NCBI GenBank assembly: GCA_014925825.1
Contig: JACGCK010000002.1
Span: 1,302,001 to 1,366,000, forward strand
Source: Pholiota molesta
Lineage: Eukaryota; Basidiomycota; Agaricomycetes; Agaricales; Strophariaceae
Length of the DNA stretch: 64,000 nt
Reading direction: 5' to 3'
Shown: positions 18,879 to 32,692 of the stretch, in pieces
Layout of the letters: each line of letters starts with the position of its first letter
Numbering within the stretch: position 1 is the stretch's first letter
Notes under the pieces: model-generated
Database searches by the model: none
Told to the model about the DNA's origin: nothing
Seen by the model: only the letters and a program-made list of their open reading frames with translations
Made by a program: the position numbers and the translations under genes

Positions 18879-20537
18879 TCATGTCCGCTTAGATAGCTGC
18901 GAGGGCCGTCTAGCGCCCTGCATTTCGAGGTATCGGTCCAAGGCCTCTAGGTCCTTGCATTCGGCATGGGGTTCCCATGTAGTGTCGCCGGCACTCCATC
19001 GAATCTCATATTCGATGTGGCCATCAGTTGTCCACCGATGGCCCAGTATATCGTCTACGAACCATTCCTGATCGTCGGCGGCGCCGAAGTCATAGGGCTC
19101 TGGCTGAGCCCTGTTAGGGAATAGCGCGTCATCGGATGGGTGGTAGGGCCTCAGTAGCGAGGCATGGAATGTAGGATTAATCCTGCGTGTTTGCAGAGCT
19201 GTAGGCAATTGCAAAGTGTATGTCGATGTCTTGGGGTATGCCATCAATACACGATATGGTCCAATGTATTTCGGGCAGAGCTTCCGCGCTCTGCTCTTTG
19301 CTATTTTCAAATTCTTGGTCGATAAATATACCAAGTCTCCTGTTGCGAGGGCAAGTTCCTCGCCACGACGTTTATTTGAGTGATGTGTTTGTAGCGCGCG
19401 CGCTTCAATAATCGCGTCATGCGCCTCGGCTAGGTGCTCGAGGGCAGCCTCTGCGAAGGACCTAATACCCTTCGCGACGCCCTCGTTACTTCGAATTTCG
19501 CGGATCATGGAGGGCATGTATCCTCCATTCAGTTCGAACGGTGCATATTTCGTGGTTTCCGATATGCTCGCGTTTATCGCGAATTCGGTCATTGCCACTT
19601 TATCAACCCAGTTTTTCTGGTTTGCATGGACCAGAGTACGAAAAATTTGTCCAACGTTCTTATTGGCACGCTCAGTCTGTCCATCAGTCTGCGGATGGAA
19701 TGATGTCGACATTAATAGGCGCGTGCCTAATATCTTATGGAGCTCACGCCACCATCGCGAAGTGAACTTCGAGTCTCGATCGCTGACGATCGTGCTTGGT
19801 AGGCCGTGTAGCCTCACGATTTCTCGTAGGTATATCCATGAAAGTTCTGATGCCGTTGTGGTTGTGTTCACTGGTATTAAGTGAACCATACTTGTCATTC
19901 GGCATATAATTACCCAAAGGTAGTTAAATCCTTTGGATTCAGGGAATGGACCAATGAAGTCCATTCCTATCGAGTCCCAAGGTTTAGTTGGTACGGGCAG
20001 TGTGTGGAGCTTTCCAGCGGGTGGTCGTGTTGAGGTCTTCGACCTCTGACATGACTCGCACGTTCGACAGAACTCGCGCACGTCCTTGGCGATCTGTGGC
20101 CACCAATACCATCTCCGTATGTATTCGGATGTGCGTTGTTCACCGAAATGACCGACAACTTCGTGGGCCTGAGTGAGAACCTTGGTTATGAGTTCGCGCT
20201 CGCGTGGTACGCACGTTACGCGGTTTTCGTTATGGTTCGTGAACCATATTATCCCATCCTTTATTTCAAAGGCGGGATGTTCTGATGGCTGGTCCATGAC
20301 CAGCGAGAACAGTTTGTCGTTGGCATATGCTGCTTTTATTTTTGTGATGAACTCGTCATCATTTGGCAGCTTTGGCGCGGGCACATTATTCCTGTTGAAT
20401 AGTGCCTCTCCGAGGCTCATGTCCTCGTGGTTCGCTCCGGCAGAACTCGCGCGGGTCGCCATATCACTATCGTGATCCAAGTCATTGAGGCCCTCGGCCT
20501 CTTTCATCTCTTGCGCTTCGTGTTCGCGCTCTTCGCG
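18879..20537 (-). CDS. pol: Pol, downstream part: integrase and chromodomain
   Basis: The C-terminal half of Pol, separated from reverse transcriptase by foldback copy A. It begins at the junction (DKREEREHEAQEM). It then shows the zinc-binding H-H-C-C region (HEVVGHFGEQ...CRTCESC). The catalytic core follows: D in DSIGMDFIGPFPES, D in STIVSDRDSKF, E in FHPQTDGQTERANK. The GPY/F-type region is KYIGPYRVLMAYP. A C-terminal chromodomain (EWFVDDILGHRW...YEIRWSAGDTTWEP, about 18950-19085) may steer integration to marked chromatin, as proposed for chromoviruses. The ATG-like codons at 20582 lie inside the foldback and are not the native start. Joining base 20537 to 24189 keeps the reading frame. 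Confidence 0.92.
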   Translation of the reverse strand, partial: REEREHEAQEMKEAEGLNDLDHDSDMATRASSAGANHEDMSLGEALFNRNNVPAPKLPNDDEFITKIKAAYANDKLFSLVMDQPSEHPAFEIKDGIIWFTNHNENRVTCVPRERELITKVLTQAHEVVGHFGEQRTSEYIRRWYWWPQIAKDVREFCRTCESCQRSKTSTRPPAGKLHTLPVPTKPWDSIGMDFIGPFPESKGFNYLWVIICRMTSMVHLIPVNTTTTASELSWIYLREIVRLHGLPSTIVSDRDSKFTSRWWRELHKILGTRLLMSTSFHPQTDGQTERANKNVGQIFRTLVHANQKNWVDKVAMTEFAINASISETTKYAPFELNGGYMPSMIREIRSNEGVAKGIRSFAEAALEHLAEAHDAIIEARALQTHHSNKRRGEELALATGDLVYLSTKNLKIAKSRARKLCPKYIGPYRVLMAYPKTSTYTLQLPTALQTRRINPTFHASLLRPYHPSDDALFPNRAQPEPYDFGAADDQEWFVDDILGHRWTTDGHIEYEIRWSAGDTTWEPHAECKDLEALDRYLEMQGARRPSQLSKRT

Positions 20538-20544
20538 CTTGTCA
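20538..20544. repeat. Target-site duplication of foldback copy A (CTTGTCA)
   Basis: CTTGTCA occurs directly before foldback copy A and again directly after it at 24189-24195. The base outside (G) also matches, so 8 bp is possible. Confidence 0.8.
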
Positions 20545-20988
20545 CAGGTACCTACATGCCACGGTATCGTGTAACACATCACATTGGCTAACTACATTGT
20601 ATCATTCGTCACGGTTCCACTGGTCAACACTGGCCAGTCCTGCATTGTACCATGTAACACGGCACACTGTCCAGGGACATTGTACCGTTGGGAACAGTTC
20701 TACAGTATACTGTACACATGTTAATACCATGCGGCATCATATTTTCCGATGCAGTGGCATCCCTCTTTCGAGGTGCGGCGTCATCCAGATGTGAAAGCGG
20801 TGTCATATATATGCCTTTTAAAAATATACATCAGGCGGAAATGCTAAAAAAACTTCGGCATCATGTGAATACTATTGATATAGGATTGCAATAGGATGCC
20901 GATTTTTTTTCGGCATCCAATATCCATATAATGTCTGGTGAGCATAGGATGCCACAAAAATGTGGCGTCATGTACTGATATTGGATGT

Positions 20989-21547
20989 AGGATGCCGCAT
21001 TTTTTCGGCGTCATGCAAATGTAAATTTGATAGGATGCCACATTTTTTCGGCATCATGCAAATATAAATTTGATAGGATGCCGCATTTTTTCGGCATCAT
21101 GCAAATGTAAATTTGATAGGATGCCGCATTTTTTCGGCATCATGCAAATGTAAATTTGATAGTATGCCGCATTTTTTCAGTGTCATGCAAATATAAATTT
21201 GATAGGATGCCACATTTTTTTGGCATCATGCAAATATAAATTTGAAAGGATGCCGCATTTTTTCGGCGTCATGCAAATGTAAATTTGATAGTATGCCGCA
21301 TTTTTTCAGCGTCATGCAAATATAAATTTGATAGGATGCCACATTTTCCCAGCATCATGCAAATATAAATTTGATAGGATGCCGCTTTTTTTTCGGTGTC
21401 ATGCAAATGTAAATTTGATAGGATGCCGCATTTTTTCGGCGTCATGCAAATGTAAATTTGATAGGATGCCGCATTTTTTTGGCGTCATGCAAATGTAAAT
21501 TTGATAGGATGCCACATTCTTTCGGCATCATGCAAATATGAATTTGA
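20989..21547. repeat. Tandem array of 43-bp hairpin repeats, copy A left arm
   Basis: Thirteen consecutive units of 43 bp. Each contains a self-complementary core GATGCCG...CGGCATC around a T-run, then a spacer like CATGCAAATGTAAATTTGATA minus its last bases. Units vary at a few positions. The facing array in the right arm has different unit lengths. Confidence 0.88.
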
Positions 21548-23332
21548 TAGGATGCCGCATTTTTTCAGCATCATGCTATTGTTGTTAGACAGGCATAGGA
21601 TGCCACATTTTCCATGGTATGGGCTATGTAGAAAAGATATTGTTGCATATTTCTGTGGCATGGTGTATATATTGGTGTAGGATGCCGCATTTTTCACATG
21701 CACGGTGGATAGCGCTCATTTAGATGAAGTGCTCGTAATAATATTGTGTGGCTGTGAGCCATGTGACGAGAAAATACCATATATGGGCATGGAATGGTGG
21801 CACCTTCCTCCTCCCCCACAACATCAAAATCAATTTCCTCCGTCATTTCCCCATAAAATCTTTCAATTCTTTTTCCATAATTTTACGTTAGTGTACTACT
21901 ACATATTCTGAGCTTGGTACATTTTCAAACATTATGTAGCAATTACTACAGGACTATCTTTGCATTTGAAACTATAAATAATAGGTTATTGAAACCTTTG
22001 AGGATGTTATTTGAGAATCTGCATCGGTGAAAGAGTAGATATATGTTTAAAGTGTATATTTCAAAGGTTGGTGGAAGATCTGCTGATGTATACACACCTA
22101 AGGAAATAGAAAAGCCATATTGAATTTATTATTGATTGTTGGGCTCATATCATAGCCAATACATGTGGTAGTATCAATATAAAAGCAGACATCGAATGGT
22201 GAGTACATCCTGTATATATCCCTCAGCCATTAGAAGTGCATCCGCTCAAATATTGAGGTGTAAGAAGATGAAACATGTCAGACAAGCATAAAATGTGTAT
22301 TTGTGCCACAGATGTACGAATAAGCACCCAGAAATTCGATGCATCTGAGGTTAGAAGGTGCTGCCAAATACCTACAGAATGAGATAGGCCGGAAGAAAAT
22401 CGAGCCAGTGGTTGGAAAGACAGATTGAAAATACTATCTTGGACATCATTTTTGACATGATTACAATTGTAATACTGTTCTGGTTCATGCAATCCGATGT
22501 TTTAGGTACCATTTCAAACCTATCTTTCCAACCACTGGCTCGATTTTTTTCCGGCTATCTCATTCTGTAGGTATTTGGCAGCACCTTCTAACCTCAGATG
22601 CATCGAATTTCTGGGTGCTTATTCGTACATCTGTGGCACAAATACACATTTTATGCTTGTCTGACATGTTTCATCTTCTTACACCTCAATATTTGAGCGG
22701 ATGCACTTCTAATGGCTGAGGGATATATACAGGATGTACTCAGCATTCGATATCTGCTTTTATATTGATACTACCACATGTATTGGCTATGATATGAGCC
22801 CAACAATCAATAATAAATTCAATATGGCTTTTCTATTTCCTTAGGTGTGTATACATCAGCAGATCTTCCACCAACCTTTGAAATATACACTTTAAACATA
22901 TATCTACTCTTTCACCGATGCAGATTCTCAAATAACATCCTCAAAGGTTTCAATAACCTATTATTTATAGTTTCAAATGCAAAGATAGTCCTGTAGTAAT
23001 TGCTACATAATGTTTGAAAATGTACCAAGCTCAGAATATGTAGTAGTACACTAACGTAAAATTATGGAAAAAGAATTGAAAGATTTATGGGGAAATGACG
23101 GAGGAAATTGATTTTGATGTTGTGGGGGAGGAGGAAGGTGCCACCATTCCATGCCCATATATGGTATTTTCTCGTCACATGGCTCACAGCCACACAATAT
23201 TATTACGAGCACTTCATCTAAATGAGCGCTATCCACCGTGCATGTGAAAAATGCGGCATCCTACACCAATATATGCACCATGCCACAGAAATATGCAACA
23301 ATATCTTTTCTACATAGCCCATACCATCAAAA

Positions 23333-23765
23333 ATGCGGCATCCTATGCCTCTCTAACAACAATTGCATGATGCCGCAAAAATGCGGCATCCTACCCCCAT
23401 CCAATTTGCATGATGCCGAGAAAATGTGGCATCCTACCCACATTCAATGTCAATTTTATATTTGCATGATGCCAAAAAAATGTGGCATCCTACCCCCATC
23501 CAATTTGCATAATGCCGCAAAAATGCAGCATCCTACCCCATCAAATATCAAATCTATATGTGCACGACGCCGCAAAAATGCGGCATCCTACTCTATCCAA
23601 TGTCAATTTTATATTTGCATGATGACGAAAAAATGCGGCATCCTACCCCATCAAATATCAAATTTATATTGGCATGACGCCGCAAAAATGCGGCATCCTA
23701 CCCCTATCCAATGTCAATTTTATATTTGCATGACGCCGCAAAAATGCGGCATCCTCCATCCAATG
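23333..23765. repeat. Irregular hairpin-repeat array, copy A right arm
   Basis: About eight units with the same GATGCCGC/GCGGCATC core as the left array, but spaced irregularly (roughly 40 to 61 bp). The two arms have therefore expanded independently. Confidence 0.8.
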
Positions 23766-24188
23766 ACGCCGCATTTTTGCGGCATTTTATGCTCACCATA
23801 CATTATATTTATATTGGATGCCGATTTTTCGGCATCCTATTCCAATCCTATATCATATATTATACAAACAATGCCGAAAAAAATTTGGTATCGCCAGAAC
23901 AGTGTATATATTTAAAATGCATATATATGACGCCGCTTTCCCAACTGGATGATGCCGCACCTGAAAAGAGTGATGCCGCTGCATTGAAAAATATGATGCC
24001 GGATAATACTCAATTACTCACAGTATACTGTAGAGCCGTTCGCAACGGTACAATGTCCCCTAGACAGTGTGCCGTTTTATACGGTACATTGTACACTGAC
24101 CATTGTTGACCAGTGGAACCGTGACCAACGGTACAAAGTACTTAGCCAATCAGACGTGTCACACGGTACCATGCCGCAGCGCTATGTG

Positions 24189-26457
24189 CTTGTCATTCAG
24201 GCGCCTACTGCGTCGCAGTTCCCTAGCTTGCATCGCCCTCAGCTCGACTACGCGCTCCTTAATCTCTCGAGTCCGTTCAACCGGGAGATCTTCTCCTTCC
24301 GGATCAATTCTTGCGTCTGCGCGAACGTATTCATGGGGCTCGTAGACGTCGGCGCTAGTATCGTTCTCGTAGTATCGAGATAAGCAGTCCGCCGCCTTGT
24401 TATATTCCCCTTTGATGTATGTGATGTCAAAGTCGAATCGCGACATGTAATCCGTCCATCGGCGTTGCCGATGGGATAAGTTCACCTGTGTCTTGAAGAA
24501 TTCAAGAGCTTTATGGTCTGTGATGACATGTAGGCGGTGTCCTACTAGCTTGTCCTCCCACTTTATTAGGGATTCTAGTATGGCCAGTGTCTCGAGCTCA
24601 TGTACAGCATAGTTTTGCTGGGCGCTAGTGAACTTTTTGGACATGAATCCGGCGGGTCTGCATTGTTGCCAGGATGGACCTTGTCCATACATTGCTCCAA
24701 CGCCCGTTTTCGACGCATCGCATATGAGCCATATAGGCTCACCGGATTTCGGGTCGATGGGTCGTATGATCGGCGTCTTGCAGCATATTCGTTTGATCAT
24801 GTCAAAACATCGCTGATGTAGTGGTCTCCAGTGGAATGGCGCGCCATTCATTGTCATCGCGAGGAGAGGCCCGGTATAGGCAGATATATTGGGTAGGAAA
24901 TTTCCTACATAGTTGACTAGCCCAACGAATCGTTGGATGTCGTTGTAATTCCGCGGTACTCGCCATTCGCGTATGCGTGATAACTTGTCCGCGTCAGGGT
25001 GTATTCCTTGGTCGTCGATGATATGACCAAGGCAATCGATTCTTTCGGCGTATAATTCGCACTTTTTCCATTTCAAAAACAGCTGACTAGCGCGTAAGCG
25101 CTCGAATACATATTTGAGGTGTCTTTCATGTTCCTCGACACTATCTGAGAAGATGAATATGTCATCCAGATATACGTGCATGAAGCGGCCGATGGCGTCC
25201 CTGAATATGGACGTCATTAGGCGCTGGAATGTGGCAGGGGCATTGCAGTCGCCCTGCTGTATAACGTTGCTAACGTATGTCCCAGCAATTGTTGCAAATG
25301 CCGTTTTATGTACATCTTCAGGGCGTACCCTGACTTGTTCATATGCATCGGCCAGATCGATTTTCGATCTGATCTTTCCTCGCGCGACGTCCTCACGTAT
25401 GACGTCTTGGTCGGGTAGAGGCGTAACATCCTTTACTGTGTTGTCGTTTCGTAGTCGTGCATCGACTACTGTACGAAGGCGTCCATCCTTCTTGGGGATG
25501 CACATAATCGGTGCGGCCTGTGCGCACGATTTGGCTTCCCACCATCCTGCGTTCACGTATCGGTTGAGTTTTTCGTAGAACTCGTCTCGTAGTGATAGTG
25601 GGCATCGAGGCATGTGGTACGCGTACCGCTTGTTTTCCTCAATTAGATGAATTTCATGGTTTACTTCTCTGAAGGGGGTAGAACCTCCTTGACGCCTTGT
25701 ACCATATCATGAAACTCGTCATGCCATTGTTGGCGTAATCGAGGATAGTCTTCCTCGGAAAGGCCTGTCGCTTTTCCTTTTCCTTTTCTGTCCGGCTTCT
25801 TGTCCGGAGGCTGTTTCCGTTTGGGTTCATCGAATCTTGCACGCAATTTTTGAATGGATGTGCTCCATTCGTCTACTGGTGTCTCCAGTCTGACTACTGA
25901 TTGTGCATGCAGTCGTTCGCGTTCCGTGTTATCAGGGTACCAAGTCCCTGTGAATTCTTGAGTTGAGGATATTTCGTCGTCCTCTGGTGTTCGATAACAC
26001 TCTCCGCGAGGTCTGAACCTCGCCCAATCATTTGTTCTCATATCTGATACCATGGCGTTCCATTCTGTCGGCATTCGTGGATCGGGCATCCACTCGAATT
26101 GTGGTGGTGGTGTCGGTCTATCCCAGAACGACTGTCGTTCTTTCGGAACTTGGTCTTCCTGGATTTCTTTGGCCAGGTTGTCCATGCGTCTTTGGTCCTC
26201 CTCATCTGTTACAAGGTCTTCGACCTTGACTCGTGATGACGTAGGTTGGCAGTATGGTATTTCCATACTTTTTGGGACAGGTTTTGCATGTTTCTTGTGT
26301 GTTTTGTTGTGGGTTTTCTTACCCATATCGTTTTTTCTGTCCTTATCCCCCCCTTGGGAAGAGATAAGAACTCTTCCTCACTCAGCAACATGTTTGGGTG
26401 GTCGACAGCGAGAGATGGCATTTTAAGTCCATCTCCGGCGTCCGCGATATCCTCCAC
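24189..26457 (-). CDS. pol: Pol, upstream part: reverse transcriptase and RNase H (frame-broken)
   Basis: It probably starts at ATG 26457 just after the gag-protease stop. The first segment (MLLSEEEFLSLPKGG) changes frame at a G7 run (plus C7, 26347-26353) into DKDRKNDMGKKTHNKTHKKH. A charged linker runs to VKEVLPP. A second break at a C5 run (plus G5, 25674-25678) leads to FREVNHEIHLIEENKRYAYH and the RT proper. RT shows SKIDLADAYEQVRV, QGDCNAPATFQRLM, the catalytic YLDDIFIFSDS and LGHIIDDQGIHPDADK. RNase H shows WLICDASKTGVGAMYGQ, HELETLAI and VITDHKALEFF. It ends at the foldback junction RRSRRLNDK and continues at 20537. Both breaks need one extra base, so a continuous pol is likely in the source element. 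Confidence 0.88.
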
Positions 26458-26478: not shown

Positions 26479-29038
26479 TCACTCCTTAACTTTCTCGGAG
26501 GCTCTGTACCTCCTCAAACGACCATCTGTGTCCTTTAATTGGACGCGCGTCGCTGCCAGTGCTTTACCGTCGATAATAACTTCGTTTGTAACGAAGTTAA
26601 GGATGACCTTATGCTGTCGCATAAAAGGAGTGCCTACGATCATGTCGTAGCGATCAAAGTTAGCGATGTCGACATATATCGTCGACATTTTCCCGAAGAT
26701 GTCGATGAGGACATCCGCTCCGTATTTAATCATTGATCGACTCCCGACTGTGCCTAATTGGAGGATGTGTGGGTCTAATAGGGTGTCCACCACGATGTCT
26801 GCGACATGCGCAAACGTTGGTGTGATACCAGTTGTGGTGCTTCCTGAGTCCCAGAGGACCCATGCATCCATGCCACCGACCTTCAAGTATGTCGCGAGAC
26901 ATTCTTTGTCCTCGTTGCGTACAACAGGTCGGACACGGCTATTGTTCGAGGTACGCACGCGTACCCTCCGCATAAGGATTTCCTCCTTAGTGGCGCTTGC
27001 GTTAACCGCAGATAAGCGATCGCGGGTTGCGGGGACTGGGTCCTCATTTCTGTCGGCAGGGGATACAGTCATCGCCCGCATGAAATCTGAGGAACCCTCA
27101 GATTGGTAACCCTCGACCTCGATGTCGGTGAAGGTCTGGCCTTCATCGTGGTCTTCCGCACATGCTTCGCAGTCACTCGCGCAGCTGTCTGCGTCGTCGC
27201 CATCGTTCGCTGTCGCGTCTCCATTATCCGAGGGCGTGTCCTCGGAATGGGCTGCCCGTACATGGACCCTCTTGTTCTTTGGGGGTTGTGGGCAGTCTTT
27301 GGAGAAGTGTCCTTCACCTCCGCAGTTGAAGCATGTCAGGGTATTGCCACTGCCAGAGGCTCTGTTCCACGTTTTGTTACGTGGAGCCTCCTGGCTTGGG
27401 TTATCTTTCAGCGGCGTTTTCGTCGCGGTTGGTTGAGAGGGTCGATCCTCCCTTGGCGATGTATGATTTGCGCGTCGATGTGTTTTCTGCGAGCCCGGGC
27501 GACGGCGATCGGTCGTCGCCTCATTGGGCTTTGCGGTCGACGGCGCGGTGTGTATTCTCGCTCGGCGATTGTAATAATCATCTGTCTTGACTCGTGATTC
27601 ATGTGCTATAGCGAAGGCAATGAAGTCCTCCATAGTGTGAGCTTCAGGTGATAATCCTCGCTCGCGGAGGAGCTCAGTTCGCATGTCCTTAGGTATTCCT
27701 TCAAGGAATACTTCGATGAATGAGAAATCATCGGGGTAGGCAGCCATGTTTGTGGCGAACCCAATGAGTTCGTCATAGTATGCTTGTACTCCGCGAGATG
27801 CGGAGTACTTGGCTTTCCTGAAGCCCTCGCGTGCATCCTGCATTGTCGTAGCATGGATAAATCGGTTGTATAAAGCTATTATTACAGCTTCGAACGTCCA
27901 ACCGAGTTTGGTACGACTAACACTGAGTACATGACGAATATACCACTCGTGGGCTTCCCCACCTAGGTGTTCACCGAGTATTATTACTCGCATGCGGTCT
28001 AATTCTTTTCCTCCTAGCTGGCGCACCGCCATCTTGTAGGCTAAATCTGATAGCCAGTTTTCCAAGTCAGCGAACTTGGATGAACCGGTGTATTTTTCAC
28101 CGGTGTCGAGTTTCTGATTAAATTTGACACCATCAGGATAAGATATCCTGACGCTAAGAGCTTCATGAATCAGTGTAGTGAGCCGTTGCTCCATGATGGA
28201 TCGGTGACGATCCGAAGCTTCAACTACGCCAGGGGCGTCGTGGCGAGGTCCGAGCGACCTCGGTGTTGAGTATCCTCGACTAAAATGTCGATTGGTTGCG
28301 GGAGCGGTGCCGAGGTCCAAGACCTCGCTGTCTCTTGGCTCAAAGCTGAACCGTACTGCTGACTTTGGGGTATGGTCCCGTGGGCCATACTTCCGTCGTT
28401 CCTCACGATATTCGTCGCGTCGTTCTTCGCGGTAGTTATCACGTCGTTCTTCGCGATAATCGTCGCGTCGTTCTTCACGGTAGTTATCACGTCGTTCTTC
28501 GCGATAGTCGTCGCGTCGGTCAGGACTGATTATCCTTTCCGGGAGGTCGTTGACCTCCTCGAATTTAACCTGTGTCGGTGCATCATTTCCTAATGATTCT
28601 CCTGGATAATCCAGGTCGTATGCGTTTGGTCCTCGTAACTCGACGCCCTGGTCATCGATTAACGATTCACCAGTTCTATTAATGTCGTCTCGCCTGAGGC
28701 GTTGGTAGGCGACTCTGTCCTTCCAATTCATAGCCCTCGGCGTTCTTACGGTAACGTTTGGGTACGTTACCCGATTATCCGTGTTGGGGGCTTCGCCCAC
28801 ATTGTTGGTTGCGGTATATAATGGTACCGCGCTCGTCTCGCGAGCTTGTAGGCGGTTAGACGCAGCGCGTCGTCTCTGGTACTGTTCGTTCGTTTCGTCC
28901 CATCGTCGTGGTTCGTCGAGACCCGCCCTTGCCATTTCCAACGTGGGGGATGAGTGCGTAAATGGTTCTCCGACCATTTGTGATGCCGTGGGAGGGGACG
29001 TGGTCGTTGACCCTCCTCGATGTGTCAGTGTTGGTACC
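26479..29038 (-). CDS. gag: Gag-protease polyprotein, main part
   Basis: Capsid-like Gag fused to a retropepsin, ending at TGA 26479-26481. In order: a charged region with five 8-residue repeats (RRDDYREE type, about 28396-28515); a Ty3-type capsid domain (YTGSSKFADLENWLSDLAYK, HEWYIRHVLSVS, GVQAYYDELIGFATNM); a CCHC zinc knuckle (CFNCGGEGHFSKDC, about 27300-27345); an acidic linker; and a protease active site (WVLWDSGSTTTGI, about 26840-26875) with MIVGTPFM downstream. The N-terminal 186 codons lie at 32693-33252, separated by foldback copy B. Joining 32693 to 29038 gives 3,120 nt, exactly 1,040 codons, with no stop. The apparent ATG-like starts near 29040 are not native. Confidence 0.9.
28396..28515 (-). 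repeat. Five 24-bp repeats in gag (RRDDYREE)
   Basis: The gag frame contains five successive 8-residue units alternating RRDDYREE, RRDNYREE and RRDEYREE, encoded by near-identical 24-bp units. They are strongly charged and probably form a helix or RNA-contacting segment ahead of the capsid domain. Confidence 0.85.
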
Positions 29039-29045
29039 ACTGATG
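29039..29045. repeat. Target-site duplication of foldback copy B (ACTGATG)
   Basis: ACTGATG lies directly before copy B and again at 32693-32699 directly after it. Confidence 0.8.
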
Positions 29046-29471
29046 CACATAGCGCTGCGGCATGGTACCGTGTGACACGTCTGATTGGCTAAGTACTTTG
29101 TACCGTTGGTCACGGTTCCACTGGTCAACAATGGTCAGTGTACAATGTACCGTATAAAACGGCACACTGTCTAGGGGACATTGTACCGTTGCGAACGGCT
29201 CTACAGTATACTGTGAGTAATTGAGTATTATCCGGCATCATATTTTTCAATGCAGCGGCATCACTCTTTTCAGGTGCGGCATCATCCAGTTGGGAAAGCG
29301 GCGTCATATATATGCATTTTAAATATATACACTGTTCTGGCGATACCAAATTTTTTTCGGCATTGTTTGTATAATATATGATATAGGATTGGAATAGGAT
29401 GCCGAAAAATCGGCATCCAATATAAATATAATGTATGGTGAGCATAAAATGCCGCAAAAATGCGGCGTCAT

Positions 29472-29904
29472 TGGATGGAGGATGCCGCATTTTTGCGGCG
29501 TCATGCAAATATAAAATTGACATTGGATAGGGGTAGGATGCCGCATTTTTGCGGCGTCATGCCAATATAAATTTGATATTTGATGGGGTAGGATGCCGCA
29601 TTTTTTCGTCATCATGCAAATATAAAATTGACATTGGATAGAGTAGGATGCCGCATTTTTGCGGCGTCGTGCACATATAGATTTGATATTTGATGGGGTA
29701 GGATGCTGCATTTTTGCGGCATTATGCAAATTGGATGGGGGTAGGATGCCACATTTTTTTGGCATCATGCAAATATAAAATTGACATTGAATGTGGGTAG
29801 GATGCCACATTTTCTCGGCATCATGCAAATTGGATGGGGGTAGGATGCCGCATTTTTGCGGCATCATGCAATTGTTGTTAGAGAGGCATAGGATGCCGCA
29901 TTTT
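29472..29904. repeat. Irregular hairpin-repeat array, copy B left arm
   Basis: The mirror counterpart of the array at 23333-23765, with the same irregular spacing of GATGCCGC/GCGGCATC cores. The irregularity therefore predates the separation of copies A and B. Confidence 0.8.
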
Positions 29905-31689
29905 TGATGGTATGGGCTATGTAGAAAAGATATTGTTGCATATTTCTGTGGCATGGTGCATATATTGGTGTAGGATGCCGCATTTTTCACATGCACGGTG
30001 GATAGCGCTCATTTAGATGAAGTGCTCGTAATAATATTGTGTGGCTGTGAGCCATGTGACGAGAAAATACCATATATGGGCATGGAATGGTGGCACCTTC
30101 CTCCTCCCCCACAACATCAAAATCAATTTCCTCCGTCATTTCCCCATAAAATCTTTCAATTCTTTTTCCATAATTTTACGTTAGTGTACTACTACATATT
30201 CTGAGCTTGGTACATTTTCAAACATTATGTAGCAATTACTACAGGACTATCTTTGCATTTGAAACTATAAATAATAGGTTATTGAAACCTTTGAGGATGT
30301 TATTTGAGAATCTGCATCGGTGAAAGAGTAGATATATGTTTAAAGTGTATATTTCAAAGGTTGGTGGAAGATCTGCTGATGTATACACACCTAAGGAAAT
30401 AGAAAAGCCATATTGAATTTATTATTGATTGTTGGGCTCATATCATAGCCAATACATGTGGTAGTATCAATATAAAAGCAGATATCGAATGCTGAGTACA
30501 TCCTGTATATATCCCTCAGCCATTAGAAGTGCATCCGCTCAAATATTGAGGTGTAAGAAGATGAAACATGTCAGACAAGCATAAAATGTGTATTTGTGCC
30601 ACAGATGTACGAATAAGCACCCAGAAATTCGATGCATCTGAGGTTAGAAGGTGCTGCCAAATACCTACAGAATGAGATATGCCGGAAAAAAATCGAGCCA
30701 GTGGTTGGAAAGATAGGTTTGAAATGGTACCTAAAACATCGGATTGCATGAACCAGAACAGTATTACAATTGTAATCATGTCAAAAATGATGTCCAAGAT
30801 AGTATTTTCAATCTGTCTTTCCAACCACTGGCTCGATTTTCTTCCGGCCTATCTCATTCTGTAGGTATTTGGCAGCACCTTCTAACCTCAGATGCATCGA
30901 ATTTCTGGGTGCTTATTCGTACATCTGTGGCACAAATACACATTTTATGCTTGTCTGACATGTTTCATCTTCTTACACCTCAATATTTGAGCGGATGCAC
31001 TTCTAATGGCTGAGGGATATATACAGGATGTACTCACCATTCGATGTCTGCTTTTATATTGATACTACCACATGTATTGGCTATGATATGAGCCCAACAA
31101 TCAATAATAAATTCAATATGGCTTTTCTATTTCCTTAGGTGTGTATACATCAGCAGATCTTCCACCAACCTTTGAAATATACACTTTAAACATATATCTA
31201 CTCTTTCACCGATGCAGATTCTCAAATAACATCCTCAAAGGTTTCAATAACCTATTATTTATAGTTTCAAATGCAAAGATAGTCCTGTAGTAATTGCTAC
31301 ATAATGTTTGAAAATGTACCAAGCTCAGAATATGTAGTAGTACACTAACGTAAAATTATGGAAAAAGAATTGAAAGATTTTATGGGGAAATGACGGAGGA
31401 AATTGATTTTGATGTTGTGGGGGAGGAGGAAGGTGCCACCATTCCATGCCCATATATGGTATTTTCTCGTCACATGGCTCACAGCCACACAATATTATTA
31501 CGAGCACTTCATCTAAATGAGCGCTATCCACCGTGCATGTGAAAAATGCGGCATCCTACACCAATATATACACCATGCCACAGAAATATGCAACAATATC
31601 TTTTCTACATAGCCCATACCATGGAAAATGTGGCATCCTATGCCTGTCTAACAACAATAGCATGATGCTGAAAAAATGCGGCATCCTAT

Positions 31690-32248
31690 CAAATTCATAT
31701 TTGCATGATGCCGAAAGAATGTGGCATCCTATCAAATTTACATTTGCATGACGCCAAAAAAATGCGGCATCCTATCAAATTTACATTTGCATGACGCCGA
31801 AAAAATGCGGCATCCTATCAAATTTACATTTGCATGACACCGAAAAAAAAGCGGCATCCTATCAAATTTATATTTGCATGATGCTGGGAAAATGTGGCAT
31901 CCTATCAAATTTATATTTGCATGACGCTGAAAAAATGCGGCATACTATCAAATTTACATTTGCATGACGCCGAAAAAATGCGGCATCCTTTCAAATTTAT
32001 ATTTGCATGATGCCAAAAAAATGTGGCATCCTATCAAATTTATATTTGCATGACACTGAAAAAATGCGGCATACTATCAAATTTACATTTGCATGATGCC
32101 GAAAAAATGCGGCATCCTATCAAATTTACATTTGCATGATGCCGAAAAAATGCGGCATCCTATCAAATTTATATTTGCATGATGCCGAAAAAATGTGGCA
32201 TCCTATCAAATTTACATTTGCATGACGCCGAAAAAATGCGGCATCCTA
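31690..32248. repeat. Tandem array of 43-bp hairpin repeats, copy B right arm
   Basis: The mirror counterpart of the array at 20989-21547: about thirteen 43-bp units with the GATGCCG...CGGCATC core. Confidence 0.85.
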
Positions 32249-32692
32249 CATCCAATATCAGTACATGACGCCACATTTTTGTGGCATCCTATGCTCACCA
32301 GACATTATATGGATATTGGATGCCGAAAAAAAATCGGCATCCTATTGCAATCCTATATCAATAGTATTCACATGATGCCGAAGTTTTTTTAGCATTTCCG
32401 CCTGATGTATATTTTTAAAAGGCATATATATGACACCGCTTTCACATCTGGATGACGCCGCACCTCGAAAGAGGGATGCCACTGCATCGGAAAATATGAT
32501 GCCGCATGGTATTAACATGTGTACAGTATACTGTAGAACTGTTCCCAACGGTACAATGTCCCCTGGACAGTGTGCCGTGTTACATGGTACAATGCAGGAC
32601 TGGCCAGTGTTGACCAGTGGAACCGTGACGAATGATACAATGTAGTTAGCCAATGTGATGTGTTACACGATACCGTGGCATGTAGGTACCTG

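Follow-up and report, generated by a model that had tools for sequence, protein, structure and literature searches.

What is a 3.6-kb near-palindrome that encodes no transposase, and which transposase could have moved it? The question is raised by positions 20545-24188 of a 64,000-nucleotide stretch of the genome of the fungus Pholiota molesta (assembly GCA_014925825.1, contig JACGCK010000002.1, positions 1,302,001 to 1,366,000; hereafter the window). An earlier note on this DNA had described the segment as a foldback transposon of an unrecognised family, and the observation was confirmed: it is a foldback transposon, here called FB1 copy 1. The comparisons described below point further, to FB1 being, very probably, a non-autonomous foldback DNA transposon mobilised by the transposase of a Kyakuja-type KDZ element.

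Inverted arms make up nearly the whole length of FB1 copy 1, and tandem repeats lie within the arms, as in foldback elements (coordinates in Table 1). The inner arms that had been noted were present, at about 890 bp rather than the 820 bp first estimated, and pair in two complementary blocks (98% over 552 nt and 95% over 353 nt). The loop between them, which had been put at about 75 bp, proved to be about 145 bp long and is still foldable into an imperfect hairpin. The outer blocks (20560-20638 with 24095-24173, and 20674-20830 with 23903-24059) are 83-84% complementary. Tandem arrays of small hairpins were found in both arms, as claimed, and the unit of the left array holds the hairpin GATGCCG...CGGC(A/G)TC. 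The right-side mirror of the 23-bp motif at the loop edge carries three differences in this copy. The sole open reading frame (ORF) of at least 150 aa lying wholly within the element (23238-23915, 225 aa) had no Pfam match at 0.001, and the statement that no transposase is encoded holds for the window copy.

When the outer 301 bp and one inner arm were used as queries against the genome, ten foldback copies of FB1, of 2405-3898 bp, were located on nine contigs; one of the others lies in the window itself. The ends CAGGTA... and CACATAG... are common to all ten, and each copy is flanked by a perfect 7-bp target-site duplication (TSD) that differs from every other. Further copies with their own TSDs were thus found in the same genome, as the earlier note had asked, and its 7-bp reading of the duplication stands; the eighth base that it allowed for is no family feature. 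A 552-bp arm at 98% together with ten copies bearing ten different TSDs excludes a chance origin.

Empty sites were sought in the same genome by joining the flanks of each window copy without the element. The copy 1 site gave 12 matches (eight full-length at ~100% identity, two relatives at 77-80% and the two halves of the site itself) and the copy 2 site gave 11 (seven full-length at ~100%, two at 79% and the two own halves). The eight and seven empty loci are other copies of the host, a Ty3 retrotransposon, in P. molesta, whereas the check as first named concerned related strains. Because the matches for the two sites lie ~4.85 kb apart on shared contigs (e.g., C603, C473, C10 and C243), both FB1 copies inserted into a single copy of Ty3, and its sister copies remain without them. 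These sites indicate that the FB1 insertions postdate a retrotransposon copy that is itself young, and the near-identity of the Ty3 targets suggests that the FB1 family has moved recently.

Elements that share their ends with the foldbacks

A candidate helper was found on contig C223 through two matches to the outer FB1 sequence that lie 17.9 kb apart in inverted orientation. They belong to a 17,872-bp element, KDZ-1 (G000:C223:1134348-1152219), which has the 7-bp TSD CCTGGAT and interrupts a PIF1 helicase ORF, recognisable on its two sides at 2.4e-45 and 1.2e-7. The terminal 27 bases of KDZ-1 and FB1 are identical at 27 of 27 and 26 of 27 positions; the first 262 bp of the FB1 left outer arm have 84% identity to one end of KDZ-1, and the last 169 bp of the right outer arm 88% identity to the other. 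The two KDZ-1 ends match each other at ~79-82% in inverted order. KDZ-1 encodes a KDZ domain (PF18758, 1.3e-37) and a CxC2 domain (PF18803, 5.8e-17); the KDZ transposase has 454 database relatives, and PF18758 was present in all of the 120 among the matches listed. The search for an autonomous relative with a transposase, suggested by the earlier note, led to KDZ-1, which, judged by its ends and TSD length, is a related transposase-coding copy.

The FB1 inner-arm search also led to a second family, FB2, consisting of palindromes of ~3.58 kb whose arms are 95.6-98.1% identical in self-alignment (four copies, whole sequence). The likeness of FB1 and FB2 is limited to the inner 1.46 kb, at ~75% identity, and the FB2 ends are CAGGTAGCGGGG and CACAAAGCGGGG. 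A 7-bp TSD was present in nine of ten copies tested (C25, C605, C57, C14, C268, C589, C108, C8 and C300), a count that leaves out three further FB2 matches (C235, C478 and C64). The copy on C108 (G000:C108:29187-40728) is stretched to 11.5 kb with its TSD intact, and presumably holds a nested insert. The tenth copy (G000:C5:158980-162557) lacks a TSD and carries CACAA at either end. Over 387 of 387 bp its right flank is identical to that of the C25 copy (73223-76804), and the right halves of the two agree at 99.0%, so that it looks like the product either of an ectopic exchange between foldbacks or of a misjoin in the assembly. A 15,007-bp element on C25, KDZ-2, is likewise bounded by FB2 ends; it has the TSD ACCTGAA and encodes CxC2 (5.9e-17) and KDZ (1.1e-28). 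Two foldback families therefore each match their own KDZ element, and sequence evidence links each of them to an element of this genome that codes for a transposase.

Each pair also has its own short word. The most over-represented 7-mer in KDZ-1, CGGCATC (71 occurrences vs 2-4 expected, z 29.5), is also the top 7-mer in FB1 (31 vs 0.2 expected), and the most over-represented 7-mer in KDZ-2, CCGGCCG (54 vs 2-6 expected, z 18.5), is also the top 7-mer in FB2 (20-25 per copy; 20 vs 0.1 expected). The best 7-mer in four 15-kb chunks of the window, used as controls, reached z 6.0. Crosswise, CCGGCCG was absent from KDZ-1 and from all ten FB1 copies, and CGGCATC occurred four times in KDZ-2 and in none of four FB2 copies; the 56.7 kb of the window outside the two FB1 elements contain nine and three occurrences of CGGCATC and CCGGCCG, respectively. 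A family-private short word is thus present at high density along KDZ-1, KDZ-2, FB1 and FB2.

Two Kyakuja families of Laccaria bicolor (Kyakuja-1_LB and -2_LB) are described, in the available part of the source, with a 7-bp TSD, 5'-CA..TG-3' ends, no terminal inverted repeats (TIRs) and a carried TET/JBP gene (PMC12730594). The superfamily of FB1 is assignable to KDZ because a same-ended element with the same TSD length encodes KDZ, and because the 7-bp TSD and CA..TG termini match Kyakuja. The family is thus unrecognised as a sequence family, being undescribed in the literature searched, and is not unrecognised at the level of superfamily. FB1 is a satellite rather than a full member of KDZ, since the transposase is encoded by KDZ-1 and KDZ-2 and not by FB1. 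The KDZ transposase would act on FB1 in trans, by cut-and-paste. The private 7-mer, lying both in the arms and throughout KDZ-1, is a putative binding site of a KDZ-encoded protein, which might be the transposase, its CxC2 region or an accessory protein, and the foldback arms would then constitute dense docking arrays.

Several observations weigh against this account. The Kyakuja label rests on the TSD and termini, and Kyakuja elements are described, in the portion of the source available, without TIRs, whereas FB1 has long arms and KDZ-1 has diverged TIRs (PMC12730594). The TSDs reported for the Cryptococcus elements KDZ1-KDZ3, as far as the accessible text goes, are mostly 8 bp (4-8), versus 7 bp in FB1 and KDZ-1 (PMC12810828). 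Homology between KDZ-1 and FB1 extends over only the outer ~170-260 bp, parts of which are repeated in the KDZ-1 subterminal array, and the FB1 arrays and core had no BLAST match in KDZ-1. As the arrays do not match, the 7-mer was amplified within distinct repeat units; nevertheless, the shared word is not wholly independent evidence, because some of its copies sit in the homologous ends. Finally, the KDZ match of KDZ-2 contains two in-frame stops.

The shared centre, the arms and the private words

Searches with the centre found a third family, FB3, with five copies of ~2.5 kb and the ends CACCTGCC, and a fourth foldback sharing the centre, FB4, of which one copy was examined. The TSD is 8 bp in all five FB3 copies (one taken from flank sequence) and in the FB4 copy. 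The outer arms of FB3 and FB4 are unrelated to those of FB1, and the outer arms of all four families are mutually unrelated, except for one stretch common to FB3 and FB4; the core of FB1 and FB3 is 64% identical over ~430 columns. FB3 and FB4 each contain two occurrences of CGGCATC and none of CCGGCCG. The FB3 end pattern also bounds elements of 8.2 and 8.4 kb (G000:C152:31212-39442 and C333:1020631-1029019, with 0 and 1 mismatches, respectively). These are probable autonomous partners of FB3 and are not among the best-candidate KDZ matches of the genome; by their 8-bp TSDs, FB3 and FB4 are candidates for Zisupton, hAT or another superfamily with that TSD length.

The 23-bp motif had 76 matches in the genome at up to 2 mismatches and the reversed pattern had none. 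The matches fall into 46 loci, 30 with an inverted, inward-facing pair and 16 with a single match, and the pairs span 200 bp in 8 loci, 211 in 8, 212 in 12 and 213 in 2. The motif was absent from KDZ-1 and KDZ-2 at up to 4 mismatches, and viral contigs contained no exact match. When the motif loci are combined with 40 scored centre loci and the inner-arm loci, the central hairpin is common to at least 75 loci, which is a lower bound because the centre and inner-arm searches score only the best candidates. Sequence was examined for 24 of the 75: ten FB1, seven FB2, five FB3, one FB4 and locus L061 (G000:C179:357000-361000), a diverged relative in which the motif pair faces outward instead of inward.

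The arms bear the marks of exchange within elements. Among nine FB1 copies compared, three have inner arms that match each other completely (100%) and another three have inner arms at 98.9-99.3% identity, and the loop is inverted relative to the outer ends in four of the ten copies (C603, C179, C100 and C593). Against this stand three FB1 copies (C24, C97 and C71) with inner arms at ~94%, in which left arms group with left and right with right. As identity within a copy ranges from ~94% to 100%, homogenisation of the arms is real but not constant. Arm identity was profiled along six elements (one FB1, two FB2, two FB3 and one FB4). The FB2, FB3 and FB4 arms are 88-100% identical almost throughout, dropping near the centre, and FB2 arms also differ at the outermost 5 bp (CAGGT vs CACAA). 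Identity over the outer 500 bp of FB1 is 70-86%, and its arrays do not align. Recombination within the element may therefore keep the arms alike and flip the loop. Unlike outermost ends are kept in FB1 and FB2, which suggests that transposition needs, and would select for, two different ends; the ends of FB3 and FB4 are alike, and such a need would not apply to them.

A centre common to unrelated shells implies that the centre is older than the shells or that the shells have been exchanged. It is possible, although we lean against it, that the foldback lineage is defined by its central hairpin, and that the outer shell and the transposase partner were switched, a new end being copied from arm to arm by recombination. 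The core shared by FB1 with FB2 and FB3, the recurrence of the 23-bp motif as an inverted pair of nearly constant span, the unrelated outer arms, the 7-bp TSDs of FB1 and FB2 against the 8-bp TSDs of FB3 and FB4, and the absence of the motif from KDZ-1 and KDZ-2 are all consistent with such a switch. However, common descent with fast-evolving arms may also fit. The shells were examined in full for four families.

The distribution of the private words bears on a different alternative, in which the dispersed 7-mer is an anti-silencing code: a putative KDZ-encoded binder would lift silencing along the whole element, and the foldbacks would be satellites with extra sites. VANC of Arabidopsis VANDAL elements is a precedent, recognising a family-private short motif that often forms tandem arrays and lies mainly in non-coding DNA, according to the available part of the report (PMC5735166). 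The words here are spread over the whole of both KDZ elements: CGGCATC occurs in 15 of 18 one-kb bins of KDZ-1 and CCGGCCG in none of the 18, and CCGGCCG occurs in 13 of 15 bins of KDZ-2 and CGGCATC in 4 of the 15. They also persist beyond the ends. With 2.2 kb trimmed from each end of KDZ-1, CGGCATC ranked second (z 18.2), behind the overlapping ATGCCGC, and with 1.5 kb trimmed from each end of KDZ-2, CCGGCCG ranked third (z 13.5), behind CGGGGCC/CGGCCCC. The complete difference in word between the two elements and its multiplication in arrays likewise resemble the VANC targets as partly described (PMC5735166). Unlike those mainly non-coding motifs, CGGCATC in KDZ-1 falls inside ORFs too, although the 639-bp ORF that contains the KDZ domain has none. 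Moreover, Galileo, a foldback of the P-element superfamily, has a transposase that binds repeated sites inside its long TIRs, in the part of the work available (PMC3688188), and plain docking therefore also accounts for arrays at the ends. Seven other KDZ loci (3.3-3.6 kb) showed no strong private word (z up to 4.6, like 3.5-kb controls), the pieces being too short to settle the matter. An anti-silencing role is, on balance, rather unlikely. A fuller scheme is unlikely as a whole: that each KDZ family carries a short word of its own, recognised by a protein that the element encodes, with foldbacks as parasitic docking arrays, and that an ancient central hairpin crossed transposase systems by shell swap and arm-to-arm copying.

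Another alternative is that the centre is a transcribed hairpin giving rise to small RNAs, as an RNAi decoy or regulator. The 23-bp block is conserved in both strands of the stem, and the flanks and the loop next to it are more diverged, as in a precursor; the folding energy of the 200-nt centre is -108 kcal/mol (z -16). Such folding is, however, expected of any palindrome. The innermost part of FB1 folded little better than shuffled sequences (z -1.4 and -1.8 in two copies); the corresponding values were -3.6 to -6.4 in FB2 and FB3 and -0.9 and -2.1 in FB4. When 21 centres were folded on both strands, leaving out C593 and L044, elements without the motif pair, the minus strand was more stable in 9/9 FB1 and 5/5 FB3 centres and the plus strand in 5/6 FB2 and 1/1 FB4 centres, so no strand direction is common to all families. 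A search of FB1 against Rfam with E up to 5 returned 11 matches, all of them far from the gathering score, and a tRNA search (bacterial code) found none in two overlapping pieces of one FB2 locus, in one FB3 locus or in L001. The motif search brought up no obvious target outside foldback-like loci, although most of the 16 single-match loci were not examined. A small-RNA function is thus improbable. That the elements reflect assembly artefact or segmental duplication is hardly credible: palindromes are hard to assemble, and the C5 copy of FB2 lacks a TSD and shares its flank with C25, but the ten FB1 copies on nine contigs have ten different TSDs and both window copies have clean empty sites.

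Mobilisation by a KDZ transposase is the preferred reading of FB1. The second window copy, the dispersed 7-mer, the loop inversions and the shared central hairpin had no place in the earlier note.

Position of the elements in the window

FB1 copy 1 splits the Ty3 pol gene between its reverse transcriptase/RNase H and integrase portions, and copy 2 adjoins the gag-like ORF, which contains a 24/48-bp tandem repeat at 28394-28518. The Ty3 ORFs are flanked by direct repeats (13484-14585/34236-35313 and 14872-15559/35621-36308) of ~72% identity, 20.75 kb apart, which are possibly old long terminal repeats. The Ty3, PIF1-helicase and KDZ sequences next to the elements agree with a fungal origin.

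Table 1. Features of the window, in window coordinates.
Feature	Position	Strand	Remarks
FB1 foldback element, copy 1	20545..24188	+	3644 bp
FB1 copy 1 termini			CAGGTACC... and, inward from the opposite side, CACATAGC...
TSD, left	20538..20544		CTTGTCA; FB1 copy 1
TSD, right	24189..24195		CTTGTCA; FB1 copy 1
Left outer arm	20545..20986	+	FB1 copy 1
Left array	20988..21576	+	43-bp unit x 13.7, 90% matches
Left inner arm	21505..22398	+	overlaps the end of the array
23-bp motif CTACAGAATGAGATAGGCCGGAA	22372..22394	+	loop edge; found in other foldback families too
Loop / diverged centre	22399..22543		~145 bp
Right inner arm	22544..23436	-	FB1 copy 1
Right array	23328..23755	-	43- and 55-bp units mixed
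Right outer arm	23756..24188	-	FB1 copy 1
FB1 copy 2	29046..32692	-	3647 bp; 99.9% identity to copy 1; TSD CATCAGT (element strand)
Ty3 integrase half of interrupted pol	18879..20582	-	H2C2, rve, Tf2-1-like SH3; chromo under cut-off
Ty3 reverse transcriptase / RNase H half of interrupted pol	24159..25613	-	
Ty3 gag-like ORF	26479..29040	-	CCHC knuckle; Ty3_capsid under cut-off

Comparison with known systems

FB1 resembles Kyakuja in its 7-bp TSD and CA..TG ends, and KDZ-1 and KDZ-2 resemble it in their KDZ transposase. The published pair differ in carrying TET/JBP and in having no TIRs, as far as the available text describes them (PMC12730594). Subterminal repeats in inverted orientation are present in KDZ-1 and KDZ-2, and FB1 has long arms and no recognised gene. 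The genome contains five TET/JBP-like matches (G000:C1:11550, C34:35000, C268:304883, C1:615047 and C124:10405), one of which reaches the Pfam cut-off; none lies inside KDZ-1 or KDZ-2. Cryptococcus KDZ1-KDZ3 are likewise large elements in which a KDZ transposase is combined with a zinc-binding CxC domain. In the accessible part of that account their domain is CxC1, rather than CxC2 as here, their TIRs are 139-241 bp long, and foldback derivatives are not mentioned (PMC12810828). Kyakuja together with a foldback was not found in the open-licence PMC literature, nor was a fungal foldback, palindromic or non-autonomous KDZ family like FB1 in its titles and abstract openings.

FB elements of flies have long tandem-repeat arms, a middle domain and copies without transposase, and FB, Galileo and Tetris share this general likeness with FB1. 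Tetris, with TSDs of 8-10 bp, has no identified helper in the portion of its description available (PMC4079207), and foldbacks can thus be without an identified one; here, two families are each linkable to a candidate. In contrast to the fly elements, the helper candidate of FB1 is a KDZ element with a 7-bp TSD, and one central hairpin spans several families. VANDAL transposons, which are MULEs, belong to another transposon family. The likeness to the VANDAL/VANC system lies in a dense, family-private short word, often arrayed and differing between related elements; the binding protein is known there, on the evidence of the partial text, and putative here (PMC5735166). The word here also occurs in ORFs and on non-coding foldback satellites.

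The paired private words make it possible to test directly how a KDZ transposase recognises its substrate and to look for a VANC-like code outside plants, and the shared centre allows a test of whether foldbacks change helpers. A foldback with TSDs is ordinary; unusual are a KDZ helper candidate found twice, a private word for each pair and a centre that spans TSD lengths.

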